DNA from: Anaerolineales bacterium
GTDB taxonomy: Bacteria > Chloroflexota > Anaerolineae > Anaerolineales > UBA11579
Direction of reading: 5' to 3'
DNA length: 64,000 nucleotides
NCBI GenBank assembly: GCA_019637805.1
Contig: JAHBVB010000001.1
Location: 323,875 to 387,874 of the forward strand
A model generated the notes under the pieces. That model worked only from the letters and a program-made list of their open reading frames with translations. It was not told where the DNA came from and did not search any database. Shown piece after piece: positions 26,415-45,682 of the stretch. The first letter of the stretch is position 1. Each line of letters opens with the position of its first letter. Made by a program: the position numbers and the translations under genes.

Positions 26415-28837
26415 GCGAAGTACTGAGCGTATTGGGCTGGTACCTGCTGCTGGCCGCGTTGGGCGGGCTGGCCTTGCCGGTGGGCTACCGCTTTTTTTGC
26501 GCGCTGGCGGACAAAGGTTACGCCTTCTTGCGCCCGCTGAGCCTGCTGCTGTGGGGCTTTCTCTTCTGGCTGTTGGGCAGCTACGGGCTGCTCCCCAACA
26601 ACCCGGCCGGCATCCTCAGCGCTACACTGCTGCTGGGCGGCCTGAGCTGGTGGGCAGCCCGCGGCCTGCAGCCGGGCGAACTGCGCGGCTGGCTGCGCAG
26701 CCAACGCGGCACGCTGCTGGCGATGGAAGCGCTGTTCTTGCTGGCCTTTGTTTTCATGGCCTGGGTGCGCGCCGCCAGCCCGCAGATCTACCATACCGAG
26801 CAGCCGATGGAGCTCGCCTTCATCAACGCCATCCTGCGCTCGCCGGCCCTGCCGCCGCACGACCCGTGGATGTCGGGGTTCTCGATCTCCTATTATTACT
26901 TCGGCTACCTGATGGTGGCGATGCTGGCCCAGCTGTTGAAGCTGAGCGGCTCGCTGGCCTTCAACCTGGGCTTTGTCAGCATCTTCGCCTGTACCGCCCT
27001 GGCGGCCTATGGCCTGGCCTACAACCTGCTGATGGTCTACAAGCCGCGCCTGCAGCGCAGCCTGCTGTGGCTGGCCGGCCTGGCGCCGCTGCTGGTACTG
27101 CTGCTGGGCAATGGCGGCGCGCTGCTGGAGCTGGCCCACGCGCGCCACGTCTTGTGGGCGCCGGGCGCTGAGGGCACGCTGCAGTCACGCTTCTGGACCT
27201 GGCTGGACGTGGACGAACTGTCCAGCCCGCCAGTAGGCGAGCCGTCCTGGACGCCGCGCCACTACGACACGGATTTCTGGTGGTGGTGGCGCTCCTCGCG
27301 CATCATCAACGACCGCGACCTGAGCGGCAGTGACCAGGAAGTCATCGATGAGTTCCCGGCCTTCTCCTTCACGCTGGGCGACCTGCACCCGCATGTGCTT
27401 TCGATGCCTTTTGTGCTGCTGGCCACCGGCCTGGCGCTGAACCTGTACCTGGGCGGCGGCGCACGCCGCCAGCCGCTGCCCGCCCTGGGGTTCAAGATCC
27501 AGGCCGAGGACCTGGCTTTTGCGATCGTGCTGTTGGGCGGGCTGGCCTTCCTCAATATTTGGGACTTCCCCATCTACGCAGCCCTATACGGCTTGGCCTA
27601 CCTGCTGCGTCAGGGACGGCGCGAGGGCTGGCGTTGGGAGCACTTTATTGACTTGCTGGCATTGGGCCTGGTGCTGCTGGTGGGTGGCGTGGCAGCCTAC
27701 CTGCCCTTCTACCTGGGCTTCACTTCACAGGCCGGCGGCATTCTGCCCAACCTGATCAACCCCTCGCGCGGGGCGCATTTGTGGATCATGTTCGGCTGGC
27801 TGTGGCTGCCGTTGCTGGCCTACCTGCTGTGGCTGTGGAAAGGCGCCCGCTGGCAAGGCTTGGGGCGCGGCCTGCTGTACGGGCTGGCGTTGGCGGCCGG
27901 GCTATGGCTGCTGTCTGTGGGGCTGGCCGGGTTGTACGCGGGGCTGCTGCCCGGCAGCGCTCTGGGGCAGGCCGTGGCCGCGCTGGGGGGCGGCAGTCTG
28001 GGTGAGATTCTGGCGGCTGGTCTGCAGCGCCGAGCGGCGGCGATTGGCGGCAGCCTGTCTCTGGCAGCCTTGCTGGGTCTGTGCCTGGGCCTGTTGAGCC
28101 AGAAACCGCCAGCCAAGAAGGTCGAACCGCAGCACAGCCCGGTGCACGCTTTCGTGCTGTTGATGGTCTTCATGGGCGCCTTGTTGGTCACCGCGCCGGA
28201 ATTTATTTATTTGCGTGACCAGTTCGGTACACGCATGAACACTGTGTTCAAGTTCTATTTCCAGACCTGGCAGCTGTGGGCCGTGGCGGCCGCGGTAGGC
28301 GCCGTGGTACTGCTGAGCGAGTTGCGCCGCGTCTGGCGGGCGGCCTTTGCCGGCTTGATGGCGCTGGCGCTGGCGGCCGGGCTGCTGTTCTCGCTCTACT
28401 CTTTTTCGCAGATCACGCGCAACCCGGTGGGCAGCCTGGACGGAGCCGCCCACCTGCCCGCCGACACCCAGGCGGCCATCGCCTGGCTGCAGGCGGCGCC
28501 GCTGGGCGTACTGGCCGAGGCGGTGGGGGCCAGCTATGACAGTTCCACTTCGCGCTTCTCAGCCTTCAGCGGCCAGCCCACCCTGATGGGCTGGCCGGGC
28601 CACGAAGGGCAATGGCGCGGCGGGAATGTGGACTGGACGCGCATGGACCAGCTGCGCACGCTGTATAGCACGTCGGATTGGCGCAGCGCCCAACTGATCC
28701 TGGAAGACTACAACATCCAATATGTGGTGGTAGGCCCCACAGAACGCGCCAGTTACCCAGTCAACGAAGAAAAATTCGCCCAGAACCTGCGCATCGTTTT
28801 CCAGAGCGAAAGCATCACCATCTATCAAGTCCCGTAA
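26411..28837 (+). CDS. DUF2298 (YYY) membrane protein
   Basis: 808 residues from GTG 26411. About 14 membrane helices. It has the YYY motif in SISYYYFGYLMVA and the conserved EFPAFSFTLGDLHPHV loop, paralleled by SEFPLFTFTYADLHAH in the preceding protein. The C-terminal soluble domains also correspond (VVVGPTERASYPVNEEKF versus IILGQMERAYYPGDG). It is therefore a tandem paralogue of the C-terminal half of the upstream fusion. The 4-nt overlap suggests the two are made in step and perhaps work as a pair. Confidence 0.85.
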   Translation: MSEVLSVLGWYLLLAALGGLALPVGYRFFCALADKGYAFLRPLSLLLWGFLFWLLGSYGLLPNNPAGILSATLLLGGLSWWAARGLQPGELRGWLRSQRGTLLAMEALFLLAFVFMAWVRAASPQIYHTEQPMELAFINAILRSPALPPHDPWMSGFSISYYYFGYLMVAMLAQLLKLSGSLAFNLGFVSIFACTALAAYGLAYNLLMVYKPRLQRSLLWLAGLAPLLVLLLGNGGALLELAHARHVLWAPGAEGTLQSRFWTWLDVDELSSPPVGEPSWTPRHYDTDFWWWWRSSRIINDRDLSGSDQEVIDEFPAFSFTLGDLHPHVLSMPFVLLATGLALNLYLGGGARRQPLPALGFKIQAEDLAFAIVLLGGLAFLNIWDFPIYAALYGLAYLLRQGRREGWRWEHFIDLLALGLVLLVGGVAAYLPFYLGFTSQAGGILPNLINPSRGAHLWIMFGWLWLPLLAYLLWLWKGARWQGLGRGLLYGLALAAGLWLLSVGLAGLYAGLLPGSALGQAVAALGGGSLGEILAAGLQRRAAAIGGSLSLAALLGLCLGLLSQKPPAKKVEPQHSPVHAFVLLMVFMGALLVTAPEFIYLRDQFGTRMNTVFKFYFQTWQLWAVAAAVGAVVLLSELRRVWRAAFAGLMALALAAGLLFSLYSFSQITRNPVGSLDGAAHLPADTQAAIAWLQAAPLGVLAEAVGASYDSSTSRFSAFSGQPTLMGWPGHEGQWRGGNVDWTRMDQLRTLYSTSDWRSAQLILEDYNIQYVVVGPTERASYPVNEEKFAQNLRIVFQSESITIYQVP

Positions 28838-28845
28838 TCCGAGCC

Positions 28846-28882
28846 GGCATGGATGGCTCGGCTATAATGAGCCATCCATGCC
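28846..28882 (+). promoter_or_regulatory. perfect 14-bp inverted repeat enclosing TATAAT and a start codon
   Basis: GGCATGGATGGCTC (28846-28859) and GAGCCATCCATGCC (28869-28882) are perfectly complementary. The 9-nt loop GGCTATAAT contains a consensus -10 (28863-28868), and the ATG of the next gene (28878) lies inside the right arm. No T-run follows on either strand, so it does not look like a terminator. A repressor operator or an extruding cruciform at the promoter is possible. Confidence 0.65.
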
Positions 28883-30557
28883 AAAAGCCACCTCCCCCAG
28901 CCGGGGACAATTCTTTTTCCTGCTGATTCTGCTGCTGGCAGCCGGGCTGCGCTTTGTACACCTGGGTTCTGCGCCACTGAGCGAATTTGAAGCCGGCGCG
29001 GCGCTGGCGGCAAAGGCCGTGGCCCAGGGCCAGCCCGCCGACCTGGGAGCGCAGCCCGGCTATGTGCTGCTGACCAGCTTGCTCTTTCGCCTGCTGGGCA
29101 CGGGCAACGCCCTGGCGCGCCTTTGGCCGGCCGTGGCCAGCCTGGCGCTGGTGGCACTGCCCTACTATTGGCGCAAAACCCTGGGGCAGACTGTGGCGCT
29201 GGTGCTGAGCCTGTTTCTGGCGCTGGACCCCGGCCTGGTGGCCTTGGCGCGCCTGGCGGGCGGGTCGAGCCTGAGCCTGGCGGCGAGCCTGTGGGCAGCC
29301 AGCCTGCTGCTGCGCGGCCGGGCCGTGCCCGCCGGGGCGCTGGCCGCCGCCGCCCTGCTGGCCGGGCCAGGCGTATATTTGGGCCTGGCCGCCGCAGGGG
29401 CTGCCCGGCTGCTGGTGCGTCCCAAGCTGCCTAGCCCTCCATGGCAGGCGGCCCTACCCGCCTTCTTCGCCACGCTGGTTCTTGGGGGGACGCTGCTCTT
29501 CAGCGCACCGCAAGGCCTCTCCGGCCTGGGACAAGGCCTGGCGGCCTTCTTGCTGGGCCACGGGTACCCGCCCGGAGTGAGCATCGGCGAAATGCTCTTC
29601 GCCCTGTTCGGCTACGGGCTGCCGGCCTTGCTGCTGGGCCTGCCGCACCTGCTGCGGGCAGAGCCGGCGCCGGGGACACGCCCGGCGGCGATCTTCGCCG
29701 GGCTGGCCCTGCTGCTGGCGCTGCTGCACCCTGGCCGCCAAGTGGCGCACCTGGCCTGGGTCTTGCTGCCCCTGTACTGGCTGGCGGCGGCCGAGGTCAG
29801 CCGTTACCTGCGGCGTCCGCAGGAGGAGCCCAGAGCGACCTATGGCGAATTTGTGCTGATCAGCCTGCTGATGCCCTTTTTTGCCTTCACCCTGGCGCGC
29901 GCCAGTGGTGAGGACTATCTGCTGTATTTTGAACCCGGTCGGCTGATGCCGGTGGTCAATCCGCAAGTGCTGCTGCCCCTGGTGGTGGTGTTGATCGCGG
30001 GGGCGGCTAGCCTGTTGGTGGCCTTGGGCTGGTCGCCGCGCGCCGCGCGCCAGGGTCTGGTGTGGGCGCTGAGCCTGGCCGCCTGCTTAGGCCTGCTAGC
30101 CGCCAGCGCCCGCTATGGGCGCCAAACCGCGGCGCTGACGCACGATTTATGGCAGCCGGGCGCGGCCACGGCCAACCTGCGCCCCTTATTGGAGAGTGTA
30201 GATGACCTCTCATTCTGGGGCGCCAGCCAGCCTGGCGCCCTGGCAATCCAAAGGCGCAGCCCAAGCGCCGCGTTGGATTGGGCGCTGCGCGAGTACCCAG
30301 CGGCCAGTGGCCAGGCGGCGCCGGCCCTGGCCATCACCCCCGCCGACCAGCTGCCGGTGGAGTTCGCCGCCTACCGCGGGCAAAGCTTTGCCTGGCAAAC
30401 CCGCCGGGACTGGGACGCCTGGCCGCCCAACATTTTCGCCTGGCTGCTGTTCCGCCAGGGCAGCCAGACCGATCAGCACATCATCCTGTGGGCGCGCACC
30501 GACCTGTTCGCGGACGGCGACGCAAGCTTGCAAAACTTCGACGAGGCAATTCCCTAA
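28878..30557 (+). CDS. GT-C-like polytopic membrane protein
   Basis: 559 residues starting at the ATG at 28878, 9 nt after TATAAT. The N-terminus resembles a GT39 first loop (APLSEFEAGAALAAKAVAQG), but the acidic pair is E-E in a shifted context. The protein is shorter than usual GT39 enzymes. About 11 Leu/Ala-rich helices are followed by an extracytoplasmic tail of about 130 residues. I read it as a divergent GT-C relative, possibly catalytically weak or inactive. It has its own promoter, so it is regulated apart from the YYY genes, and is followed by the cmk-plsC fusion after 3 nt. Confidence 0.72.
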   Translation: MPKATSPSRGQFFFLLILLLAAGLRFVHLGSAPLSEFEAGAALAAKAVAQGQPADLGAQPGYVLLTSLLFRLLGTGNALARLWPAVASLALVALPYYWRKTLGQTVALVLSLFLALDPGLVALARLAGGSSLSLAASLWAASLLLRGRAVPAGALAAAALLAGPGVYLGLAAAGAARLLVRPKLPSPPWQAALPAFFATLVLGGTLLFSAPQGLSGLGQGLAAFLLGHGYPPGVSIGEMLFALFGYGLPALLLGLPHLLRAEPAPGTRPAAIFAGLALLLALLHPGRQVAHLAWVLLPLYWLAAAEVSRYLRRPQEEPRATYGEFVLISLLMPFFAFTLARASGEDYLLYFEPGRLMPVVNPQVLLPLVVVLIAGAASLLVALGWSPRAARQGLVWALSLAACLGLLAASARYGRQTAALTHDLWQPGAATANLRPLLESVDDLSFWGASQPGALAIQRRSPSAALDWALREYPAASGQAAPALAITPADQLPVEFAAYRGQSFAWQTRRDWDAWPPNIFAWLLFRQGSQTDQHIILWARTDLFADGDASLQNFDEAIP

Positions 30558-30560
30558 ACT

Positions 30561-31940
30561 ATGACGCGTAAACTCAGCATCGCCATCGACGGCCCAGCCG
30601 CATCGGGAAAATCCACCCTGGCAGAGGCCCTGGCCAAGGAATTGGGCTACCTGTACTTCGACACGGGGGCCATGTACCGCGCCGTGACCCTGGCCGCCCT
30701 GCGCCAGGGCATCGATACCCAAGACCAACAGGCCCTGGCGGAATTGGCTGAGCAGGCCGACATTGACCTGCGCCCTCCCAGCAAGGCCGACGGCCGCTTG
30801 AGCGACGTGTTTCTGGATGGCGAGGACATCACTTGGGAGATCCGCACCAAGGCCGTGGACGTCAACGTCTCGGATGTGTCGGCGGTGCCCGCCGTGCGCC
30901 AGGCGCTCGGCGCCCAGCAGCGCCGCATTGGCCTGCGCGGCGGGGTGGTGATGGCCGGCCGTGACATCGGCACCGTGGTGCTGCCTGAAGCTGAGCTGAA
31001 GATCTATTTGGACGCCTCGCCGGAAGAACGCGCCCACCGCCGCCACAGCGAGCTGCTGGAGCAGGGCAAGGAAGCCAATTACGAGAAGGTGCTGGCGGCG
31101 CTGATCGAGCGCGACAAGATCGACTCCAGCCGGGCGGTGGCGCCGCTGAAGCCAGCGGAGGACGCGGTGATGCTGAAGAGTGACGGCATGCCGCGTGAAG
31201 AAGTGCTGGATTTGGTGCTGAAGCTGGTCGCCGAGCGCAGCCAGCCAGAAGACCCGCAAAGCAGCCCCAATTACCGGTTGCCGCTGAGCAATTGGATCTT
31301 CCGCCACATCTTCGGGCCGATCTTTCGCCTGCTGTTCCGGATCTTGTGCCAGGTTCGCCTCGAAGGGCTGGAGAACGTGCCTCGCAAGGGACCTTACATC
31401 ATTGCCTACAACCACGTCTCCAACTTCGAGCCGCCTTTTGTGCTGGCGTTCTGGCCGTATTTCCCCGAGGCGGTGGCCGGCGCCGATGTGTTCCAGCGTA
31501 AAGCGATCAACCTGTTCGTCGGCGGCTACGGGGCCATCCCGGTGCGGCGCGGCGAGTATGACCGCAAAGTGATCGACACCATGCTGGAGGTGCTGGCGAG
31601 CGGCCGGCCGCTGGCCATTGCTCCCGAGGGCGGGCGCAGCCACGACCCCGGCCTGCGCCCGGCCCGGGCCGGCGTGGCCTACCTGATGGACCGCGCCGGC
31701 GTGCCGGTGGTGCCGGTGGGCATCAGCGGCACCAGCGACGAAGTGCTCAAGCTGGCTGTGCGCGGCAAACGCCCGCAGCTGACCATGCGGGTCGGCCCGG
31801 CCTTCAACCTGCCGCCGATCGCGGGACGCGGCGAAGAGCGCCGGGCGGCGCGCCAAGCCAACGCCGACCTGGTGATGAGACACATCGCCAGCCTGCTGGC
31901 GCCGGAGCACTGGGGCGTGTATAAACCTTTGGAGAAATGA
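30561..31940 (+). CDS. cmk: cytidylate kinase fused to PlsC-type acyltransferase
   Basis: 459 residues. Residues 1-220 are a full CMP kinase: P-loop IDGPAASGKSTLAEALAK, YFDTGAMYRA, MAGRDIGTVVLP and ERDKIDSSRAVAPL. Residues 245-459 are a lysophosphatidate acyltransferase domain. Its first motif reads NHVSNFEPPF, giving HX4E where HX4D is usual, and the third block reads PEGGRS rather than PEGTRS. CMP kinase feeds CTP for CDP-diacylglycerol, so the fusion joins two steps that meet at phospholipid synthesis (inference). The gene overlaps the following histidine kinase as ATGA. Confidence 0.93.
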   Translation: MTRKLSIAIDGPAASGKSTLAEALAKELGYLYFDTGAMYRAVTLAALRQGIDTQDQQALAELAEQADIDLRPPSKADGRLSDVFLDGEDITWEIRTKAVDVNVSDVSAVPAVRQALGAQQRRIGLRGGVVMAGRDIGTVVLPEAELKIYLDASPEERAHRRHSELLEQGKEANYEKVLAALIERDKIDSSRAVAPLKPAEDAVMLKSDGMPREEVLDLVLKLVAERSQPEDPQSSPNYRLPLSNWIFRHIFGPIFRLLFRILCQVRLEGLENVPRKGPYIIAYNHVSNFEPPFVLAFWPYFPEAVAGADVFQRKAINLFVGGYGAIPVRRGEYDRKVIDTMLEVLASGRPLAIAPEGGRSHDPGLRPARAGVAYLMDRAGVPVVPVGISGTSDEVLKLAVRGKRPQLTMRVGPAFNLPPIAGRGEERRAARQANADLVMRHIASLLAPEHWGVYKPLEK

Positions 31941-34900
31941 TCACTTACTTTTTGGCCGGCTTTCCCTTTCAGCGTTTGCTGCCGCCTAATGGCCCCCTGG
32001 CCTGGTTGGCCGGGCTGCTGTTGGGCGGCCTGCTGCTGCGCTGGCTGTGGCGGCAGCCGCGCCGCGCCGCCTGGGACCGGGCGGAGTGGTTTTGGCTGCT
32101 GGGCCTGCTGCTGCTGACCCCGCTATCGATCCTCCTGGTTGGCCTGCGCTTGTCCAGCGCCGGCTTGTTGCCCATTCCTGCCCTGGGACCGCCGCCGGTG
32201 GCCCCGCTGCTGCCCCTGCTGGCCGCCCTGCCCTGGGTGCTGGCGGTTGCCCGTCTGGGCAGCCTGCCCGGCGCGGCGCTGGCCGGGCTCTCCGGGTTGC
32301 TGCTGGCTTTCTGGGGCACGCGCAGCCCCTTCACCACCCTGGAACACGCCTGGGTGGCGGCTATATTTGCCGCCGCAATCAGCCAGACCTATAGCAGCCG
32401 CTTGTTCGGTTGGCTGCGCCAGCCGCTGGTGGCGGCCGCTGCCTTGGCCCTGCTCTACCCGCTGTTCTATCTCCTGACCGCCACTTTCTGGGCCTCGGCA
32501 GACCTGGTGACCGCATTGGATTTCGCCCTGGTGTCTTTGGCGCCTGTGACCCTGGCGGCCGGGCTGCCGCTGCTGGTGGCTGGGTTGGCGCTGCAGCTGG
32601 CGCAAGCCCGCGGGCTGCTGGCCCCGACACCGGCCGCCCCACAGGCGGCGCCCAACCAGCGCAGCCTGGAGGGCCGCCTGCTCTTCACGCTGGGCCCGGT
32701 GGTGCTGCTGGCCTTCGCCGCACTAGCGGCGCTGTCCTGGTGGTCGGCCAGCCGGGCCGCCGAACGCCTGCTCAACGAGCGCGTGCAGTCGGCCGTGCAG
32801 GTCACGGCCGGCAGCGTACCCTTCCTGTTGGAAACCGGGCAAAACCTGATCGCCCAGTTGGCGGGCAACCCCGGCCTGCCAGACGCCTCGTCCGCGGCAG
32901 CGCAGGAGATCCTGCAAAACCACCTGCGGGCTGTGCCGTATTTTGAGCAACTCTTTTACCTTGACACCGGCGGCAATAGCGTGGCCGGGCTGCCGCAGGC
33001 TGATCTGCTGCAGCTGCCGCCCAGCCAGGCCGAACTGGAGGCGGTAAGCCTGGCGATCCAAGGCCTGGGCTTCCAAGTGGTCAGCGCGCCCGCCAACAGC
33101 CCGCAAAGCAATGCCGCCCAATTGGCCTTCGTGGCCGCGGTGCGCAACGCCAACGGGCAGGTGCGCGGCGTGCTGTTGGGCCGCACCAGCCTGGCCTCCA
33201 ACCCCTTCGCCCAGCCCGCAGTGCAAAGCCTGCGCAGCCTGTCCAGCCTGGGCGGGCAGGGCTTCCTGCTGGACGGCGATGGGCGCATTGTGCTAGCCGC
33301 CGATCCGGGCGCCCTGCTGCAGCCTTACAACAACCGGCGCGGCCCTGCGGCCCTGAACTATAGCGACGCCGCCCCGGATGGTTCGCGCCGGTTTATCAGC
33401 TATTTGCCCGTGACCGGCAGCAACTGGGCCGTGGCGGCCCACTGGCCCGCCCGCCTCAGCCAGCAGCTGGCCCTGGAGCTGGTGCTGCCGATCGGCCTGG
33501 TGCTGCTGGCGCTGGCTGGGCTGGCGTATTGGCTGCTGCGCACCAGTTTGCGCTCCGTGACCGGTTCGCTGCACACACTGATGGGCGAAGCCAAGCGTCT
33601 GGCCACGGGCGACCTGCAGGCGCCCCTGGCGGTGACCGGGCCAGACGAGGTGGGCCGCCTGGCGGATGCTTTTGAAAGCATGCGCCTGGCGCTGAAGGAC
33701 CGCGTGGATGAAAGCCGGCGGTTGCTCTCGGTCAGCCAGGGGCTGAGCGCCAGCTTGGACGCCAGCACCCATGTCGACCCGATATTGAACGCGGCCCTGG
33801 CCAGCGGCGCCGCCGCGGCCCGCCTGGTGCTACGCAGCGACAGCGGTCAAGTCTCAGGCTACGGCCTGGGGCCGGCTGCCCGCAGCAGCCAGGGGCTGGA
33901 CAAGCAGATCTTTGACCTGTCCGCCAAGCAAGACCGCATCCTGCTGACCAACCCAGCCCGGGCACGCCTGAAGGCGGCGCCTGGGACCGGTCTGCCGCAA
34001 GCCATCGCCGCGTTCGCTCTGCGCCAGAAAGAGCAATACCTAGGCGTGCTGTGGCTGGCCTATGACCAAGCCCAAACCTTTGACCCCAATACGGTGCAAT
34101 ACCTGGAAGCCCTGGCAGACCAGGCCGGCCAGGCCGGGCTGAACGCCTACCAATACGCCAGCGCCCAACAAGGCCGCCAGCGCTTCGAAGCCGCCTGGAA
34201 TGCAGTGCCCGAGCCGGTGCTGCTGACCGACGCCAGCGACAAAGTGCTGTTCGCCAACCCCGCCGCCCTGCAGGCGCTGGACAAGCCGGCCGAGGCGGTG
34301 CTGGGGGCAGCCCTGCCGGGTTTGCTGGCCCTGCCGCAGGGCGAGCAGGCCGCCGCCGGCTTCGAGATCGAGCTGGGCAGCCAGGTGTACCTGGCCACGG
34401 TGTCTGAACTGCAAGACAGCCGGCAGAGCGTGGGCAAAGTGGTGTACTTGCGCGACCTGAGCAGCCTGCGCCGGGCAGAAAATGCGCGCAGCGACTTCCT
34501 GGCCACCCTGAGCCACGACCTGCATGAACCGCTGGACCAGACCCAGGGCTATGTGCAAATGCTGGCGGCTCAGGGCCAGCTCAACGAGCAGCAGAGCAGC
34601 TACCTGCGCAAGATCGAGCACAACCTGGAGAACATCGCCCGCCTCTCCAGCAACTTGACCGATATTGAGCGCGTCTCCGGCTTGAAGAGCCTGGAGCTGC
34701 AAACTTTCCCGATCGCCACCCTGATTCAGGACGTGCTGAGCGAACTGACCCCACGCGCCCGCCAAAAGAACCTGGATCTGGTGCAGCACACGGCCGGCAC
34801 AGCCCAGCCGCTGAGGGCAGACCGCACGCTGCTGCAGCGCGCCCTGCACAATCTGCTGGACAATGCCATCAAGTTCAGTCCGCGTGAGAGCGTGATCCAG

Positions 34901-35149
34901 ATCAGCAACGTATATGCCGGCGATCGGTTGACCCTGGCCATCACTGACCACGGATCCGGCATTGCGCCGCTGGACCTGCCGCAGATCTTCCAGGCCAAGC
35001 CAGGCGCCGAGCGCAAGTCTTCGGGCCTGGTGATCGTGCGCTCCGTAGTGGAGCGGCACGGCGGCCGCGTTTGGGCCGAAAGTGAACTGGGCTCCGGCAG
35101 TACTTTCTTCATGGAGCTGCCGCTGACGCCCTACCAGGCAGCCGGCTAA
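31937..35149 (+). CDS. multidomain membrane histidine kinase
   Basis: 1070 residues. Residues 1-225 hold about seven helices; a further helix near 255-275 leads to a large extracytoplasmic Cache-like sensor (about 280-515). A helix near 520-540, HAMP, GAF-like (about 600-740), PAS (about 750-850) and HisKA follow. The H-box is SHDLHEPL. The ATPase domain has the N-box LLDNAIKFSP and the G1 box DHGSGIAP, but the G2 region KSSGLVIVRS lacks the usual GxGLGL glycines. No response regulator is adjacent; the OmpR-type regulator at 59.7 kb is a distant candidate. Overlap with cmk-plsC makes it part of that operon. Confidence 0.88.
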   Translation: MITYFLAGFPFQRLLPPNGPLAWLAGLLLGGLLLRWLWRQPRRAAWDRAEWFWLLGLLLLTPLSILLVGLRLSSAGLLPIPALGPPPVAPLLPLLAALPWVLAVARLGSLPGAALAGLSGLLLAFWGTRSPFTTLEHAWVAAIFAAAISQTYSSRLFGWLRQPLVAAAALALLYPLFYLLTATFWASADLVTALDFALVSLAPVTLAAGLPLLVAGLALQLAQARGLLAPTPAAPQAAPNQRSLEGRLLFTLGPVVLLAFAALAALSWWSASRAAERLLNERVQSAVQVTAGSVPFLLETGQNLIAQLAGNPGLPDASSAAAQEILQNHLRAVPYFEQLFYLDTGGNSVAGLPQADLLQLPPSQAELEAVSLAIQGLGFQVVSAPANSPQSNAAQLAFVAAVRNANGQVRGVLLGRTSLASNPFAQPAVQSLRSLSSLGGQGFLLDGDGRIVLAADPGALLQPYNNRRGPAALNYSDAAPDGSRRFISYLPVTGSNWAVAAHWPARLSQQLALELVLPIGLVLLALAGLAYWLLRTSLRSVTGSLHTLMGEAKRLATGDLQAPLAVTGPDEVGRLADAFESMRLALKDRVDESRRLLSVSQGLSASLDASTHVDPILNAALASGAAAARLVLRSDSGQVSGYGLGPAARSSQGLDKQIFDLSAKQDRILLTNPARARLKAAPGTGLPQAIAAFALRQKEQYLGVLWLAYDQAQTFDPNTVQYLEALADQAGQAGLNAYQYASAQQGRQRFEAAWNAVPEPVLLTDASDKVLFANPAALQALDKPAEAVLGAALPGLLALPQGEQAAAGFEIELGSQVYLATVSELQDSRQSVGKVVYLRDLSSLRRAENARSDFLATLSHDLHEPLDQTQGYVQMLAAQGQLNEQQSSYLRKIEHNLENIARLSSNLTDIERVSGLKSLELQTFPIATLIQDVLSELTPRARQKNLDLVQHTAGTAQPLRADRTLLQRALHNLLDNAIKFSPRESVIQISNVYAGDRLTLAITDHGSGIAPLDLPQIFQAKPGAERKSSGLVIVRSVVERHGGRVWAESELGSGSTFFMELPLTPYQAAG

Positions 35150-35161
35150 CCTCTGCACAGC

Positions 35162-35189
35162 TTGACAGGCTTGACAGCCAAGATATAAT
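35162..35189 (+). promoter_or_regulatory. perfect-consensus promoter of rpoC
   Basis: TTGACA (35162-35167), 16-nt spacer, TATAAT (35184-35189), the best-matching promoter in the window. Predicted +1 is about 35196, leaving a leader of about 240 nt before rpoC. Confidence 0.85.
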
Positions 35190-35222
35190 TACTGCATCAA
35201 TCGAATAGCTTGCTTGCCAACT

Positions 35223-35268
35223 AAAGCGAGCGCTTAGGAGAAAACTTCCTAAGTGCTTGTTTTGTTTG
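35223..35268 (+). promoter_or_regulatory. attenuator-like hairpin in the rpoC leader
   Basis: AAAGCGAGCGCTTAGGA (35223-35239) can pair with TCCTAAGTGCTTGTTTT (35247-35263) over 17 positions, three of them G-U. It is followed by GTTTG, giving a U-rich tract at and after the stem. It begins about 27 nt after the predicted start of transcription and looks like an intrinsic terminator placed before the gene, i.e. an attenuator. No short leader ORF is obvious, so control by protein or translation state is open. Confidence 0.55.
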
Positions 35269-35329
35269 TGTGTGTTCGTAGCACGTTTGTTCGGAAATCT
35301 TGTCTTTGCCTGGTGGTGTTATGCCCATT

Positions 35330-35374
35330 CGCGGAAAACTCAAAGCAGCCCAAGGGGTCAAACAATTTTCCGCG
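35330..35374 (+). promoter_or_regulatory. second stem in the rpoC leader
   Basis: CGCGGAAAA (35330-35338) pairs with TTTTCCGCG (35366-35374), enclosing a 27-nt loop. It lies between the attenuator-like hairpin and a canonical Shine-Dalgarno AGGAGG (35421-35426) placed 10 nt before the rpoC ATG. The rest of the leader shows no other strong pairing by eye. Confidence 0.4.
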
Positions 35375-35436
35375 GCACATGCCCAGCAGTCATCACAACA
35401 GCATTCTCGCAATCAATATAAGGAGGCCACCTAATT

Positions 35437-39726
<4,290 letters not shown>

Positions 39727-39738
39727 CCGACAAGAATC

Positions 39739-39770
39739 AAAAAGCCCCGCACAATGTGCGGGGCTTTTTT
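39739..39770 (+). terminator. strong bidirectional terminator after rpoC
   Basis: AAAAAGCCCCGCAC-AAT-GTGCGGGGCTTTTT, a 14-bp stem with GC core, A-run before and six T's after. It ends rpoC and can also end the convergent gene that stops at 39780. Confidence 0.95.
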
Positions 39771-39779
39771 GTTGGATGC

Positions 39780-40886
39780 TTAGGGTTTCTGCACCGTGAA
39801 ATAGGTGTAGTGATAGGCAATGTGGTCGTTTTGCAAGCCCAATGAATCTTTGCCGTCCAGCACGCGGCCATTGCTGGATTGGGCGGACCAGGTGATGGTG
39901 CGCACATTGCCATTCTGCGACTGGCCGGTGATCTCAAAGCGACCGCCCGGCAGCGTTTCGCGCAGCAGGGCGTTGTACCAGCGCAAGATGCTCTCCGGTC
40001 CCTGGCGGGTGTGCTGGGCGCTGACATGCACGCCCTCGGTGTCGTAGAGCGCCGCCACCTTGACCGGATCATTGGAATTCATGGCGTTAATATAGCGAAT
40101 GGCGATATCCGGCTTCTCTTCCACTGCCGGGGCATCCCAGCGATAGTCTTTGACCGCATTCCACAGCAGTGAATTGTCCCAGCGGGCGTAATACCATTCC
40201 CAGAAATTGACGCCGGGCAACTCCAACTCACGCGCCTTATCCATAAAGGCCTGTATCTGCTTGGGGGTCGGCTTCCAGGTACCCTCGGGGTACACGCAGC
40301 CCGTAGGGATGATGGGGCGCCAGACGCGCAAGGCCTGGTGCTCACGCACCGTGCGCAGCAGCTGCTCGGCGGGGTTGAAAGATTTGATCCAGTAGACCTG
40401 GGGCATATTCAGGTCGCAAAAATCCAAGAAGGTCTCGTAAGGGAACGGCCGGTGCATGGTGGGAAAGCGAAAAGTGCTCAGGGCTATCGGCGTGCTGGGC
40501 AAGCCCTTGCGCAATTCCTGCATGTAGCGCCCGGCGACCGCATCCATGCCGGGCTGCTTGAACTCTATCTCTGCATTGACCACGAAGCCGGGCAGGTTGA
40601 ACTGCCGCACGCGTTGGATGGCCATTTGGGCTTCTTTGACCGGGTTGCGGCCATAGACGTACTGCCAGCCCCAGGGCTGGATGCCGCGCTGCCGCAGCGC
40701 GGCCACCAACTCCGGGACACGGTCGTATTGGGTGTCACGGTCTACGTTGTAGGTATATTCGCCATCGGTGATCTTGATCAGCACATGGCTCATCCCCGCC
40801 TGGCGCGCCAATTCCGCAATTGCATTCGGATCGCCGCGCTCCACGCGCTGGATGATCCACAAGTACATTCCTTTGCCGTATAACAT
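39780..40886 (-). CDS. glycosidase-like TIM-barrel protein with SnoaL-like C-terminus
   Basis: 368 residues from the ATG at 40886. The frame is open a little further, but GGAG at 40895-40898 is best spaced for this ATG. Residues 1-260 look like a glycoside-hydrolase-type barrel (HVLIKITDGEYTYN, IQPWGWQYVYGRNP, GFVVNAEIEFKQPG, GVNFWEWYYARWDN). Residues 265-368 resemble a SnoaL/NTF2-like domain (IAIRYINAMNSNDPVKVAAL). No signal peptide is seen, so the protein should be cytoplasmic, unusual for a glycosidase. The acidic residues in NAEIEF are candidate catalytic groups. It is convergent with rpoC and behind the shared terminator. Substrate unknown. Confidence 0.7.
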   Translation of the reverse strand: MLYGKGMYLWIIQRVERGDPNAIAELARQAGMSHVLIKITDGEYTYNVDRDTQYDRVPELVAALRQRGIQPWGWQYVYGRNPVKEAQMAIQRVRQFNLPGFVVNAEIEFKQPGMDAVAGRYMQELRKGLPSTPIALSTFRFPTMHRPFPYETFLDFCDLNMPQVYWIKSFNPAEQLLRTVREHQALRVWRPIIPTGCVYPEGTWKPTPKQIQAFMDKARELELPGVNFWEWYYARWDNSLLWNAVKDYRWDAPAVEEKPDIAIRYINAMNSNDPVKVAALYDTEGVHVSAQHTRQGPESILRWYNALLRETLPGGRFEITGQSQNGNVRTITWSAQSSNGRVLDGKDSLGLQNDHIAYHYTYFTVQKP

Positions 40887-41034
40887 CTGCATTGGCTCCA
40901 ATCCCCCTTGTAGCAAGTTCTGTGCCGAAAGTGGTCGGCGACCACCGTTAGGGCTGCCATTTTTGTCAAGAAGATATATTAATCGCCGCGGGGCGGGGTT
41001 TTAATCAAACTTGACAACTTTTCCGGCGGATCCG
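40887..41034. other. intergenic region before the glycosidase-like gene
   Basis: On the minus strand there is a TTGACA without a matching -10 at 17 nt and a TACAAG closer to the gene. A small dyad GTGGTC-GGC-GACCAC lies at 40931-40945. No small ORF or RNA gene is recognisable, and the promoter of the glycosidase-like gene cannot be fixed. Confidence 0.35.
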
Positions 41035-41604
41035 TCAGGCAGGCTGGCCCTCCAGGCCCAGTTCGGCGGCGTTGGCCTGCATGGCGGCCAGCACATTGCC
41101 AGCATGCTCCCAAAGCTCCACGCCAAATTCGCGGGCGCCGTCCTCAATCTCTTCGCGGTTGGCCCCCGCAGCAAAGGCGCGGTCTTTCCATTTGTTCTTG
41201 ATGGATTTGACCTTTACGTCGGCAATCGCCTTAGAAGGACGCACCAGGGTGACCGCGGTGATCAGCCCGGTAATCTCATCGCAGGCATACAGCGCTTTCT
41301 GCAAGCGCGTGGCACGCGGCACGCCGGTGTGGTTGGCGTGGCTGAGCACGGCCTGCACCACCTCCTCAGGGACGCCGCGTTCGCGCAAGATCGGCGCGCC
41401 CGCCTGGGGGTGCTGCTCCAGCGTGGGATGCACTTCCCAATCAAAGTCGTGCAGCAGGCCCGCCAGCCCCCAAGTCTCCACATCTTCGCCGTACAGGCCG
41501 GCGTAATGGCGCATGGCAGTTTCCACCGCCAACATGTGGCGCACCAAAGCTTCATTCTTGACGAACTCGTGCACGATGTCCAAAGCTTCCTGGCGAGAGG
41601 TCAT
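41035..41604 (-). CDS. HD-domain hydrolase
   Basis: 189-residue soluble protein of the HDIG/HD type, with the metal-binding HD in GLLHDFDWEVHPT, a preceding His at VRHMLAVETAM, and H-x-x-H-like residues in LSHANHTG. The N-terminus (REALDIVHEFVKNEALVRH type) matches stand-alone bacterial HD phosphohydrolases of uncertain substrate, often nucleotide-directed. The ATG at 41604 has a GGAAG Shine-Dalgarno 6-7 nt upstream. TAGAAT (41632-41637, minus) is a possible -10. It lies downstream of the phosphonate transporter unit behind a hairpin. Confidence 0.8.
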   Translation of the reverse strand: MTSRQEALDIVHEFVKNEALVRHMLAVETAMRHYAGLYGEDVETWGLAGLLHDFDWEVHPTLEQHPQAGAPILRERGVPEEVVQAVLSHANHTGVPRATRLQKALYACDEITGLITAVTLVRPSKAIADVKVKSIKNKWKDRAFAAGANREEIEDGAREFGVELWEHAGNVLAAMQANAAELGLEGQPA

Positions 41605-41637
41605 GGCAGTCTTCCTTTGTGAATGGTCGGGGATTCT

Positions 41638-41667
41638 AACATCCCGCCCCTTGCGGGGCGGGATGTT
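41638..41667 (-). terminator. GC-rich hairpin after phnE
   Basis: AACATCCCGCCCC-TTGC-GGGGCGGGATGTT, a perfect 13-bp stem 32 nt after the phnE stop. Read on the minus strand it is followed by AGAATCC, so the U-tail is poor, but the stem is very stable. The -10-like TAGAAT of the HD gene shares its last base with the right edge. Confidence 0.6.
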
Positions 41668-41698
41668 TGGATGTACGTCAAGCCAAACTCAGCCGCGG

Positions 41699-43534
41699 CT
41701 AGGTATAGCGCTCACGCACCACCGAACTGATGTAGTCCAGCGTGGCCACCACGATGGCAATCGCCACCATCTGCGTGCTGGCGCCGCGGTAGTTAAGCAG
41801 GTTGATATTCTGCTGCAGCAGGAAACCGATGCCGCCGCCGCCCACAAAACCGATGATGGTGGACATGCGCACATTGATATCCCAACGGTAGAGTGTGTAA
41901 GCGATGTAGGGCGGAATGATCTGCGGGACGACGGCGTAGATGATGGTCTGCAGGCGATTGGCGCCTGTGGCCTGCACCGCCTCCATGGGACCGTCCGCAA
42001 TGCTCTCGACCTGCTCGGAGTAGAGCTTGGCCAGGCTGACCACAGTATGCAAGGCCAGCGCCATCATGCCGGCGAAGGGGCCAATGCCCACGGCGATCAC
42101 GAACACGATGGCCATCACCAGGGCCTCGATGGAGCGCAGGGCGTTGAGGATGGTGCGGATCACGAAGTAAAGGGCCGTTCCGACCGGCAGGGTGTCCTTG
42201 GGCTGGGTAAGCAGAGCCAGCAGCACGCCGCCGGCAGCGCCGATGGCGGCTGGGATCCAGAGCGTGCTGACCGGATTGCCGATTTGATACAGCCACTCCG
42301 CCGCGGCGCCCAGCAAGCCAAAGATCACGGCGCCCACCAGGCCGCCCAGCACGATGTTCATGGTCTTGACCGCGCCACTCGGCAGGCGCTCGGTGGCTTG
42401 CTGGCCAATGCGGGCCAGCATGCTGCCCAGCGCCCCACCGCCCAGCAGGGCGGCAATGGTAGGCACCAGCAGGGTCAGGATCTCACCCAGGCGGAACAGG
42501 AAATTGCCCAGGAAGGCTACACTAGAGAAGCGAGCCGCCAGCTGGGGGCCTAAATTGCTCATGGCTCCAGCCAGCGCATAGAAGGCGTAAATGCCCAGGG
42601 CGATCACGGCAAAAATGACGGCGCCGCGCGTGACCCGCAAAGCCAGTGGCGGATTAACCTCGTCCTCCACCGGGATGGCCCAGCGGATGGCAAAGTTGCC
42701 GATGACCGGGATGAGCACCGCGCTGACTAAGGCCAGCGGCAGCACAGTCACATAGGATCGAGTAAAGTCACCGATCCATAAAGTGAACTGATAGGCGAGA
42801 TAGATGCCGGCGGCCCAACCCAGGATGTTAAGCGCAATGCTGGCGATCGGGCTGCGCACCGGCCGCATCAGGTTGCGGGCGGCGGTAAAGCTGATCGGAA
42901 TGGCCAGGATGGTACCAATCGTGGTCGCCAACAAAGCCATATAGACCGTTTCCACGATCTTGTCCCAGGTATCACGCGCATTTTGGGTGAAGTAAGGCAA
43001 GCCTTCATTCTGGCGCATGCTGACGCGGATGTACTGCACGTCATCGCTTTCGCGGGCCGGCAGGGTGAAGTCCGTAGCGAAGCTGCCTTCCGCATCCGTC
43101 TCCACGAAGTTCTGCCCCAGCGATACATTGCTGGCCGGGTCAGTGCCGGGCACGAAACGCAGCGGGCCTTCCGCCCTCGGTGCAAAGTTGAAGCCTTGTA
43201 CATGGACCACGTCACCGGGGGCGCCGCAGGCCGGCGTCACGGTGATGTAACTATCGCCATCGCCGGGGTCCGCCTGCACTTCAGGGGCGCCGCCAGCCGG
43301 GCAGGTGATGTAGATAGGCGCCACGCGGATGTCTTCCACTTGGTCGTATTGGAAGATGTCGGGGCGGAAGATGGCGCGCAGCACGCGCACCAAGCTCTCT
43401 TGGCGGCGTTCGCTCTGCAGCTCGCCCAGGTTAACCCGGGTGACCTCAGCGCCATAGGCATAGACCAGTACACCCAGCAAAACGGCCACGCCCAGCGTAA
43501 TCGACTTCCAAACGTTCGATTTCTTCTCTTTCAT
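41699..43534 (-). CDS. phnE: PhnE-type ABC permease with extracytoplasmic and membrane insertions
   Basis: 611 residues, about twice a normal PhnE. One helix at 11-28. An extracytoplasmic region at about 70-185 looks beta-rich and Ig/IPT-like, with two cysteines (C78, C103). The first permease half begins at VETVYMALLATTIGTILAIP (195-214). About 230 residues with roughly five to six helices (228-455) then intervene before the second permease half. That half carries the EAA-type coupling loop near 505-545 (MEAVQATGANRLQTIIYAVV). The ATPase gene phnC ends 4 nt upstream. The phosphonate label rests on family resemblance; no C-P lyase genes are present. Confidence 0.85.
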   Translation of the reverse strand: MKEKKSNVWKSITLGVAVLLGVLVYAYGAEVTRVNLGELQSERRQESLVRVLRAIFRPDIFQYDQVEDIRVAPIYITCPAGGAPEVQADPGDGDSYITVTPACGAPGDVVHVQGFNFAPRAEGPLRFVPGTDPASNVSLGQNFVETDAEGSFATDFTLPARESDDVQYIRVSMRQNEGLPYFTQNARDTWDKIVETVYMALLATTIGTILAIPISFTAARNLMRPVRSPIASIALNILGWAAGIYLAYQFTLWIGDFTRSYVTVLPLALVSAVLIPVIGNFAIRWAIPVEDEVNPPLALRVTRGAVIFAVIALGIYAFYALAGAMSNLGPQLAARFSSVAFLGNFLFRLGEILTLLVPTIAALLGGGALGSMLARIGQQATERLPSGAVKTMNIVLGGLVGAVIFGLLGAAAEWLYQIGNPVSTLWIPAAIGAAGGVLLALLTQPKDTLPVGTALYFVIRTILNALRSIEALVMAIVFVIAVGIGPFAGMMALALHTVVSLAKLYSEQVESIADGPMEAVQATGANRLQTIIYAVVPQIIPPYIAYTLYRWDINVRMSTIIGFVGGGGIGFLLQQNINLLNYRGASTQMVAIAIVVATLDYISSVVRERYT

Positions 43535-43538
43535 GGCC

Positions 43539-44291
43539 TTAACCTACCCGCTCGGCGTCTTTGCCGTAAATTTCTTTGAACTTGGCGTCGTCGATCTTCT
43601 TGGGTTCCCCTTGAAAAACGACTTTGCCCTGGTTAAGCGCCACAACATAATCCGAATAGCGATGCACCAGATCCAAAAAGTGCAGTGAGCAGATCACGGT
43701 GACTTTGTCTTCCTGGTTGATCAATTCCAGATACTTCATGATGCTGTGCGCCAGCACCGGGTCCAGGCTGGCCACCGGCTCGTCGGCCAGCAGGATGCTG
43801 GGGTCTTGCATCAAGGCCCGGGCGATGCCGACCCGTTGCTGCTGGCCACCGGAGAGTTCGTCGGCGCGCACGTTGGCCTTGTCTGCAATGCCGACGCGCT
43901 CGAGTTGTTGAATGGCTTTTTGGATATCTTCTTTGGGGAAATGATTGATCAAACTGAAGGCCGGGTTGAGGTAGCCAAGCCGCCCTGCCAATACATTGGT
44001 GAGCACCTTGGAGCGATTGACCAAATTAAAATGCTGGAAGATCATGCCAATCTTGCGGCGCATGCGGCGCATCTCTTCAGGGGAAAGCGAGACTAGGTCG
44101 ACACCATCCCAGAGGATCTGGCCGCTGGTCGGCTCGATCAGCCGGTTGATGCAGCGCAGCAAGGTCGATTTACCGGAACCGCTAAGGCCGATGACCGCCA
44201 GGAACTGGCCGTCTGGGATGTCAAAGCTTACATCGTCGAGGGCAACCACCCCGCTGTCGTAGACCTTGGTCAGGTTTCGAATTTGTAGCAT
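43539..44291 (-). CDS. phnC: PhnC-type ABC transporter ATPase
   Basis: 250 residues. Walker A is GLSGSGKSTLL, the signature is DELSGGQQQRVGIARALMQ, and Walker B is ILLADEPVASLD with a following H-loop (CSLHFLDLVHRYSDY). The FQHFNLVNRSKVLTNVLAGR block is typical of the phosphonate/phosphite importer branch. It energises import through PhnE. A Shine-Dalgarno (AGGAGT) and a TATAAT box precede it, so it can be expressed separately from phnD. Confidence 0.93.
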   Translation of the reverse strand: MLQIRNLTKVYDSGVVALDDVSFDIPDGQFLAVIGLSGSGKSTLLRCINRLIEPTSGQILWDGVDLVSLSPEEMRRMRRKIGMIFQHFNLVNRSKVLTNVLAGRLGYLNPAFSLINHFPKEDIQKAIQQLERVGIADKANVRADELSGGQQQRVGIARALMQDPSILLADEPVASLDPVLAHSIMKYLELINQEDKVTVICSLHFLDLVHRYSDYVVALNQGKVVFQGEPKKIDDAKFKEIYGKDAERVG

Positions 44292-44339
44292 GGCACTCCT
44301 GTCTTCAGGCTTTGGGTTGTGGCGATCCTGAGGAATGAA

Positions 44340-44345
44340 ATTATA
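44340..44345 (-). promoter_or_regulatory. -10 box (TATAAT) for phnC-phnE
   Basis: Perfect TATAAT on the minus strand, 48 nt before the phnC ATG and just downstream of the phnD terminator. The -35 region is poor (TCCATC at 17 nt). It supports a separate phnCE transcript. Confidence 0.55.
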
Positions 44346-44372
44346 AAAGGAAAATGAAGGGCGATGGATAAC

Positions 44373-44403
44373 AAAAAGAGCAGGGCAATGCCCTGCTCTT
44401 TTT
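44373..44403 (-). terminator. strong terminator between phnD and phnC
   Basis: AAAAAGAGCAGGGC-AAT-GCCCTGCTCTTTTT: 9-bp GC-rich stem extended by A-T pairs, T-runs on both strands. It lies 17 nt after the phnD stop and would end most phnD transcripts before phnC. Confidence 0.92.
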
Positions 44404-44420
44404 GTTTGTTTGCGTTCGGT

Positions 44421-45548
44421 TTAGCGGAAATCGTCCAGGGACTGGCCGGTCACAGCCAACAGCTCACGGATGATGTCGTAATCCGCGTCGCTGGCCGGGA
44501 AGATGCCGGACCAATCGTAGAAGTCGGGGTTACCGATCGAATCGCCCCAGGCGTCAGTCTCAGCGAAAGCCAGCAGAGCGGCTTCGATCTGAGCGCGCAG
44601 GTCAGCCGGGAACTCAGGACCGAAGGACAGCGTGTCATTCGGGATCTCGTCAGACAGACCCAGGATGCGAACCTGCTGAGCGACGTCCGGAGCCTCGGTG
44701 CGGATGTTGGCGCGAGCGTCAGCAATGCGCCAGCCTTCGCAGACCAGGCGGCTGCCGTCTTCATTGGGACCGCAGGCGTCCAGCACGTCGGTGGGGACAT
44801 CGTACATGTCCGGGGTCACGCGGCCAGCCAGCCAGTCATCATAGGACCAGGCGGGGTTGCCATCCGGGTCGAGCGGCACGGAGTAGAAGGTGGTGCCGAA
44901 GTCGACCGAGCCGTTGTACACAGCCTGAGCAGCCTGGTTGTGTCCACCAGTCTCAGTGGCCTCACCCGGGGTCACACCCAAACCATTCAGAGTAACCAGG
45001 GGGAAGAGGTAGCCAGAGGTGGAAGTCAGGGTGCCGTAGCCCCAGGAAGCGCCATCCAGGTCTTCCAGGCTCTGGAATTCGCTGTCGCGAGCGACCAGGA
45101 ACTGGGCCCAGTAGACCGGGAAGCCGAAGCGGACGGCCTTGAAGGCCACGTCCACACCGCACAGGTCATTGGCGATGGCATAACCCAGGGCGGGGATGAA
45201 GCCCATGGTGTTGTCCGGGGAGGCGCACATCTCTTCGATGGTGGCCGCATAGGAAGTGGGCACAGACACTTCAAACTTCAGGCCGGTGGCCTCTTCCAAA
45301 GCCGCAGCCATCACCTCACCGCCGGTCACAATCACGGTGGTGTCCACAGACGGCACGAACAACACCTTGATCGGGTTGTCTTCGGTACCAATGTTGTGGG
45401 TGGGTTCAGCGGGGACTTCTTCTACGGGGGCTTCTTCAACAGGTGCTTCGGGAGCGGGGGTTTCCGCGACAGGGGCGGGACCGCATGCGCTCAGCAAAAT
45501 GGCAGCCAGGGCCAGCAAGCTAAGCAAAAGGGTGAGGCGATTGCGCAT
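44421..45548 (-). CDS. phnD: PhnD-type substrate-binding lipoprotein
   Basis: 375 residues. It has a signal peptide with lipobox LLSAC (lipid-anchored Cys at about residue 21), followed by an acidic Pro/Glu/Ala linker (VEEAPVEEVPAEP). The periplasmic-binding-like fold has IKVLFVPSVDTTVI, MGFIPALGYAIAND, GYGTLTSTSGYLFPLVTL and DFGTTFYSVPL, characteristic of phosphonate/phosphite binding proteins. The ATG has GGAGA 8 nt upstream. It is first in the transporter region but separated from phnC by a terminator, a common way to make more binding protein than permease. Confidence 0.92.
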   Translation of the reverse strand: MRNRLTLLLSLLALAAILLSACGPAPVAETPAPEAPVEEAPVEEVPAEPTHNIGTEDNPIKVLFVPSVDTTVIVTGGEVMAAALEEATGLKFEVSVPTSYAATIEEMCASPDNTMGFIPALGYAIANDLCGVDVAFKAVRFGFPVYWAQFLVARDSEFQSLEDLDGASWGYGTLTSTSGYLFPLVTLNGLGVTPGEATETGGHNQAAQAVYNGSVDFGTTFYSVPLDPDGNPAWSYDDWLAGRVTPDMYDVPTDVLDACGPNEDGSRLVCEGWRIADARANIRTEAPDVAQQVRILGLSDEIPNDTLSFGPEFPADLRAQIEAALLAFAETDAWGDSIGNPDFYDWSGIFPASDADYDIIRELLAVTGQSLDDFR

Positions 45549-45670
45549 AGGAGCTTCTCCTTTGGATTATTTGGCGCTGGGAACCCAGCACTAATTGAAA
45601 TGATACTTGATATTCGTCCTACGAGTACCTTAAAAACTTGTTTGCCCAGGGGAAAACGGGGTTTTCTCCG

Positions 45671-45676
45671 TACAAT
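45671..45676 (+). promoter_or_regulatory. -10 box (TACAAT) of folC
   Basis: TACAAT followed by exactly 6 nt and the GTG at 45683, the arrangement expected for a leaderless message. A small dyad GAAAAC-GGG-GTTTTC (45652-45666) lies just before it. Confidence 0.6.
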
Positions 45677-45682
45677 CAGGGC

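Follow-up and report, generated by a model that had tools for sequence, protein, structure and literature searches.

The window considered here (the whole 64,000-nucleotide stretch of an Anaerolineales genome that was analysed) contains rpoC, the gene for the β′ subunit of RNA polymerase, behind a gene for a sensor histidine kinase; between the two lie a promoter, a hairpin followed by a U-rich tract, and a site that resembles an SOS box (Table 1). An initial annotation of this DNA had described rpoC as an orphan gene behind a histidine kinase, with a perfect TTGACA-16-TATAAT promoter and a leader of about 240 nt, and this description stands. Specifically, both genes were confirmed by Pfam, the promoter agrees with the consensus at 12/12 positions (the only such match within 28000-46000 in a promoter scan), and the distance from the inferred transcription start (~35196) to the ATG at 35437 is ~240 nt. 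A 37-aa reading frame at 35321-35434, which stops two codons before the rpoC start, has no Pfam match and, as judged by eye, no evident counterpart outside the nearest relatives, and was set aside. Elsewhere in the window, a perfect 17-bp hairpin with a T-rich tail (44370-44406) sits within the first codons of a predicted frame (44364-45689), and therefore the start of this frame is probably misplaced and the hairpin probably intergenic.

Table 1. Features of the rpoC locus, in coordinates of the window
Feature	Position	Strand	Basis or remark
Sensor histidine kinase gene upstream of rpoC (context only)	31937..35149	+	Pfam HisKA, HATPase, HAMP, dCache
rpoC promoter: TTGACA 35162-35167, 16-nt spacer, TATAAT 35184-35189	35162..35189	+	consensus 12/12
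Leader hairpin (P2), 19 bp, 5-nt loop; conserved 15-bp core 35226-35260	35222..35264	+	folding, covariation
U-rich tract TTTTGTTTG, conserved	35260..35268	+	profile over 68 leaders
SOS-box-like site TAGCACGTTTGTTCGG, form TAGCAC-N4-GTTCGG	35279..35294	+	sequence comparison
rpoC Shine-Dalgarno sequence AAGGAGG	35420..35426	+	read off the sequence
rpoC, RNA polymerase β′ subunit, 1429 aa	35437..39726	+	start ATG 35437; Pfam-confirmed

The absence of rpoB from the window, also pointed out in the initial annotation, reflects a genuine separation of the two genes. In the source genome rpoB lies on a different contig (G000:C2:973354-977166), and in two single-contig relatives (G005 and G011) the distance between rpoC and rpoB is ~0.9 Mb. 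Elsewhere in the phylum, 13 genomes were sampled, and rpoB is directly upstream of rpoC in all of them. Within the class, the pair is kept in some families and split in many (a few of these apparent splits being contig ends), and no located rpoC and rpoB sites adjoin in the family to which the window belongs. Three genomes of one class family (G193, G248 and G267, family f51) carry two copies of rpoC each, one beside rpoB and one elsewhere, and are possibly an intermediate of the split. No relevant report on a split of rpoB and rpoC in Anaerolineae was found in a partial literature search.

The hairpin in the rpoC leader folds with -25.8 kcal/mol (z -6.8), a stability that 0/200 shuffled sequences equal. 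Its G+C-rich stem with a U tract directly behind has the make-up of an intrinsic terminator, and the d'Aubenton Carafa d-score reaches up to +19.3 with the tail TTTTGTTTGTGTGTG. The 17-position stem followed by U-rich sequence that had been noticed earlier is thus indeed terminator-like, while its pair count needs revision, to 19 bp of which 15 are conserved. The second stem reported at the same time, with 9 bp, did not survive scrutiny: it has 8 bp (within 35331-35374) and a z of -1.4, is equalled by 19/200 shuffles, and by eye shows one broken pair in the closest relative. Among the hairpins of the family the median d is +4.4, against -42.8 for shuffles, and the tail behind the stem is conserved across leaders, near UUUUGUUUGUCU. 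Upstream of rpoC, a terminator-like hairpin (d above -20) is present in 83% of the family and, outside the order, in 60% of the class; among other 5′ intergenic regions the share is 28% where the neighbour is on the same strand and 13% where it is divergent, and among shuffles it is 6-7%. Since the U tract is broken by G or C, termination at the hairpin may be inefficient. A second, unrelated rpoC leader hairpin, CUCGG ... ACCGAG followed by U4-6, occurs in other families of the class (L304, L305, L309, L313, L315 and L316).

The same hairpin is found behind the rpoC promoter in 24/24 genomes of the family. RNAalifold predicts 15 pairs from 23 family sequences, in an alignment that is not model-based, with compensatory changes in 9/15. 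When 70 sequences from the order are aligned to a covariance model (and thereby biased towards the structure), 89% of the cells pair and 11/15 pairs have changes on both sides. The observed covariation was reached by 0/500 shuffles on four measures and by 2/500 on a fifth. A first covariance model matched in 66/151 genomes of the order and a second one in 139/251, the latter giving only three weak matches in the samples of class and phylum outside the order. The association with rpoC is close: 65/67 matches whose surroundings were examined adjoin the gene upstream (one of the remaining two is at a contig end, the other an unrelated second match), and an independent exact-pattern scan for the 3′ arm and tail in ~85,000 species genomes returned 115 stretches, of which 78 are immediately upstream of rpoC. 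The leader of a genome of the same genus (G005) is identical to that in CP075367.1 (Anaerolineales bacterium ACE_CHL1). A DNA palindrome is ruled out as the conserved entity by variable arm spacing and common G-U pairs. Conservation in relatives, which the initial annotation had proposed as the test of its idea, is therefore borne out, with a hairpin that covaries and is specific to rpoC, and the element is almost certainly a conserved rpoC leader RNA. Rfam 15 holds no family that matches the leader at gathering or relaxed thresholds, and a partial literature search yielded no prior description of it.

The position of the hairpin is informative about the step at which it may act. A promoter lies ahead of it in 68/72 order leaders scored, so that it stands between promoter and rpoC, as an attenuator does. 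Between the -10 box and the hairpin lie 37.5 nt in the median (sd 7, range 16-50 nt), whereas the spacing of hairpin and rpoC start codon has a median of 95 nt (sd 50, range 49-240 nt), and therefore the hairpin is tied to the promoter and not to the start codon or ribosome site. This arrangement also bears on the simplest explanation of a terminator-like hairpin between two genes, namely that it ends the upstream histidine kinase operon and that the rpoC promoter just before it is accidental. The kinase gene is indeed co-directional and ends at 35149, but the recurrence of the promoter in front of the hairpin, the differing upstream gene context among relatives and the fact that rpoC transcripts from this promoter must cross the hairpin make this highly improbable.

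Further features relate the hairpin to the behaviour of elongating polymerase. The NusG of the source genome has the N-T residues (RNTPG), as does a 177-aa NusG chain (8ehq_G) that we take to be the one from Bacillus subtilis. An elemental-pause signature, G-10 Y-1 G+1 (PMC12288461), occurs at the expected release point in 52/68 leaders, with that of the window, where pause or release is predicted at ~35267, being off by one base. The N-T residues of NusG promote pausing in B. subtilis (PMC12288461), and the TTNTTT motif is present in the window's copy and in only 25/68 leaders. Judged from these patterns, the hairpin and U tract are probably a promoter-proximal terminator or pause signal, which would act on transcription elongation or termination.

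Downstream of the U tract lies a second conserved element, missed in the initial annotation: the sequence TAGCAC-N4-GTTC at 35279-35294. In the window, 27 nt separate the start of the 3′-arm sequence GTGCT of the hairpin from the AGCAC of this box. The box is present in 56/68 leaders, at 25-27 nt from the first base of the 3′-arm GCGCU (27 nt in 44 leaders, 26 in 11 and 25 in one). The sequence of the intervening linker is free, and 0.5% of shuffled sequences have a comparable site at this spacing. Over the 56 leaders the profile is TAG[C/T/A]AC-RNNT-GTTCG, which is of the GAAC-N4-GTTC type, the LexA motif of Gram-positive bacteria (PMC3323433). The left half-site is GCAC instead of GAAC in 48/56 leaders, and thus LexA binding at the rpoC box may be weak. 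Families f11 and f7 keep the hairpin and have no box; seven f11 leaders (L110, L116, L117, L118, L120, L122 and L123) have a conserved stretch, GACTACACGC, in its stead at a similar place.

Where else the box occurs gives an indication of its nature. In an exact-pattern search of nine genomes, eight had a single site ahead of rpoC, and one further site was found elsewhere; with about one exact copy per genome, a general repeat is ruled out. This further site is in the recA promoter of one relative (G001), where a copy of the rpoC box occupies the spacer between -35 and -10. The recA promoter of the source genome contains GTACGAATGTTC within its spacer and GAACACTCGTTC just downstream, and a near-perfect box, TAAAACAAGTGTTCTA, lies 44-60 nt ahead of the gene for the nurA nuclease (L406:14467). 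The same motif is thus found at SOS genes, in the recA promoters of both genomes and before nurA. A perfect TAGAAC-N4-GTTCTA palindrome, the sole one in 844 kb, lies at L396:9845 near a gene whose phage terminase-like label is a reading of the sequence by eye. The like boxes at recA and nurA are the reason for reading the rpoC element as a LexA/SOS site, which it likely is; the reading stays at probable because lexA was not found within the 844 kb (36%) of the source genome covered, in a search with manually entered query proteins.

An alternative reason for conservation of the box in one family, f1, is pairing at the RNA level, as the box region can also pair there with the 5′ leader. The resulting enclosing stem (P1) is weakly supported in f1 (permutation 36/2000), leaves the hairpin unbroken, and is without support in f4, f8 and f11, so that it was rejected as a general feature. 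It forms part of a broader possibility in which the device consists of nothing but the hairpin, as a leaky intrinsic terminator or a NusA/NusG-assisted pause through which elongation conditions would set β′ output, and the downstream stretch is not an operator and serves either as RNA (the 3′ strand of the enclosing stem) or as pause-modulating DNA. The pausing residues of NusG, the enclosing stem in f1, the wider distribution of hairpin and U tract relative to the box, and the terminator-like hairpins of other sequence before many rpoC genes of the class would all fit such a device. It leaves aside, however, the occurrence of a copy of the box at recA and the near-constant spacing across a free-sequence linker, and the enclosing stem lacks support in the three families named; we regard it as unlikely, though as the strongest of the competing accounts. 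Stabilisation of the mRNA by a 5′ stem, or cleavage of such a stem by RNase III, would agree with a long double-stranded stem near the 5′ end, but would account neither for the U-rich tail and its conservation nor for the pause signature and the spaced box, and is very improbable.

The initial annotation had suggested an attenuator that senses polymerase and balances β and β′. This is not supported, in that the rpoB leaders of the family have neither the hairpin RNA nor the box (which also disposes of a common leader for the two genes), and that leaders compared by eye showed no alternative antiterminator fold common across the order and none shared beyond the genus; the downstream element suggests a LexA-type operator instead. 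In the rpoB leaders of split genomes, other hairpins occur at 28-29%, against 28% in same-strand intergenic controls. Four rpoB leaders from genomes where rpoB and rpoC adjoin (L365, L368, L371 and L381) contain a strong hairpin of terminator type (d +18 to +30) whose end is 51-86 nt upstream of rpoB, and therefore rpoBC may be attenuated too where the genes are adjacent. The rpoB leaders also weigh on a related proposal, in which the leader RNA binds a protein or the polymerase for autogenous control, or modifies the polymerase that transcribes rpoC, as the put element does. The strict association with rpoC, the conserved sequence flanking the loop and a promoter-proximal position as in put (PMC9378689) would be expected of such an RNA. 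On the other hand, there is one conserved hairpin only, its 3′ flank is a terminator-like tract, the 49-240 nt to the ribosome site argue against translational control, and nothing comparable lies upstream of rpoB, so that this proposal is improbable.

The interpretation preferred here is that rpoC has a promoter-proximal attenuator in two parts, a leaky hairpin terminator and a LexA-type roadblock, which is relieved by DNA damage; we consider the chances of this to be even. As sequence comparison shows, the RNA folds soon after the start site into the conserved hairpin, behind which come the U-rich tract with its pausing and release signature and, at a near-constant distance, the SOS-box-like site. 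A fraction of the polymerases would terminate near 35267, with a leader RNA of ~70-75 nt as the product, and readthrough would set the level of β′. If the front edge of RNA polymerase lies ~14-18 bp ahead of its active site, a repressor of the LexA type bound to the box would meet this edge, and stop the enzyme, with the 3′ end of the RNA within the U tract or adjacent to it. The stalled polymerase would be held there as the hairpin forms, which would favour release, and upon DNA damage the cleavage of the repressor would allow more polymerases to pass, raising β′ synthesis. The near-constant spacing between hairpin and box suggests that they work jointly, and that they act together in the manner described is rated slightly below an even chance. 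Retention of the hairpin without the box in f11 and f7, together with the hairpins of other sequence before rpoC in the class, suggests that attenuation came first and that the box was added later within the order.

The wider proposal is more tentative still: a repressor-gated intrinsic terminator in which a downstream LexA stalls the polymerase exactly in the U tract and DNA damage opens rpoC transcription, β′ having become, across Anaerolineales, a separately regulated and damage-linked subunit after the split from rpoB. The common view is that growth rate and feedback set the expression of RNA polymerase subunit genes. In this environmental order, rpoC stands apart from rpoB and behind a conserved leader that is apparently built for aborting transcription early; if the proposal is true, genome damage and the supply of polymerase would be connected, and a hairpin in the RNA would cooperate at one spot with a repressor bound to the DNA. 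A partial literature search turned up no account in which LexA controls rpoC, and none in which a hairpin is placed to suit a roadblock.

The closest known systems each share a part of this arrangement. In the rplJL-rpoBC operon of Escherichia coli, an attenuator is combined with autogenous control of β and β′; there too a leaky terminator-like hairpin lies ahead of the genes for the large polymerase subunits, whereas the hairpin of Anaerolineales precedes rpoC alone, just behind its own promoter, differs in sequence and has a conserved SOS-like box downstream. In Clostridium difficile, LexA binds weakly in vitro in the rpoB region, at a GAAC-N4-GTT site (PMC4234289), which likewise places a LexA-type site ahead of a large-subunit gene; the gene, however, is rpoB, a hairpin is not mentioned and the site lacks the set spacing from an upstream terminator. 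DNA-bound repressors that act as transcription roadblocks, among which LexA, PurR, CodY and CcpA are named in a review (PMC10310618), resemble the rpoC box in that an operator located past the start site could halt polymerase during elongation, but the described cases consulted do not couple it to an RNA hairpin at a set spacing, a coupling that in the rpoC leader is inferred. The NusG-dependent hairpin pauses in leaders of B. subtilis (PMC12288461) share the promoter-proximal hairpin, the T-rich tract and the N-T type of NusG, in contrast to the sparse TTNTTT motif of the rpoC leaders, and the distance of ~8 nt from stem to RNA end fits release better than the 11-12 nt of a hairpin pause of the B. 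subtilis type. Finally, the put RNA of phage HK022 (PMC9378689) is also a nascent, cis-acting and promoter-proximal RNA element, but put suppresses pausing and termination, whereas the rpoC element has one conserved hairpin and the features of a terminator.
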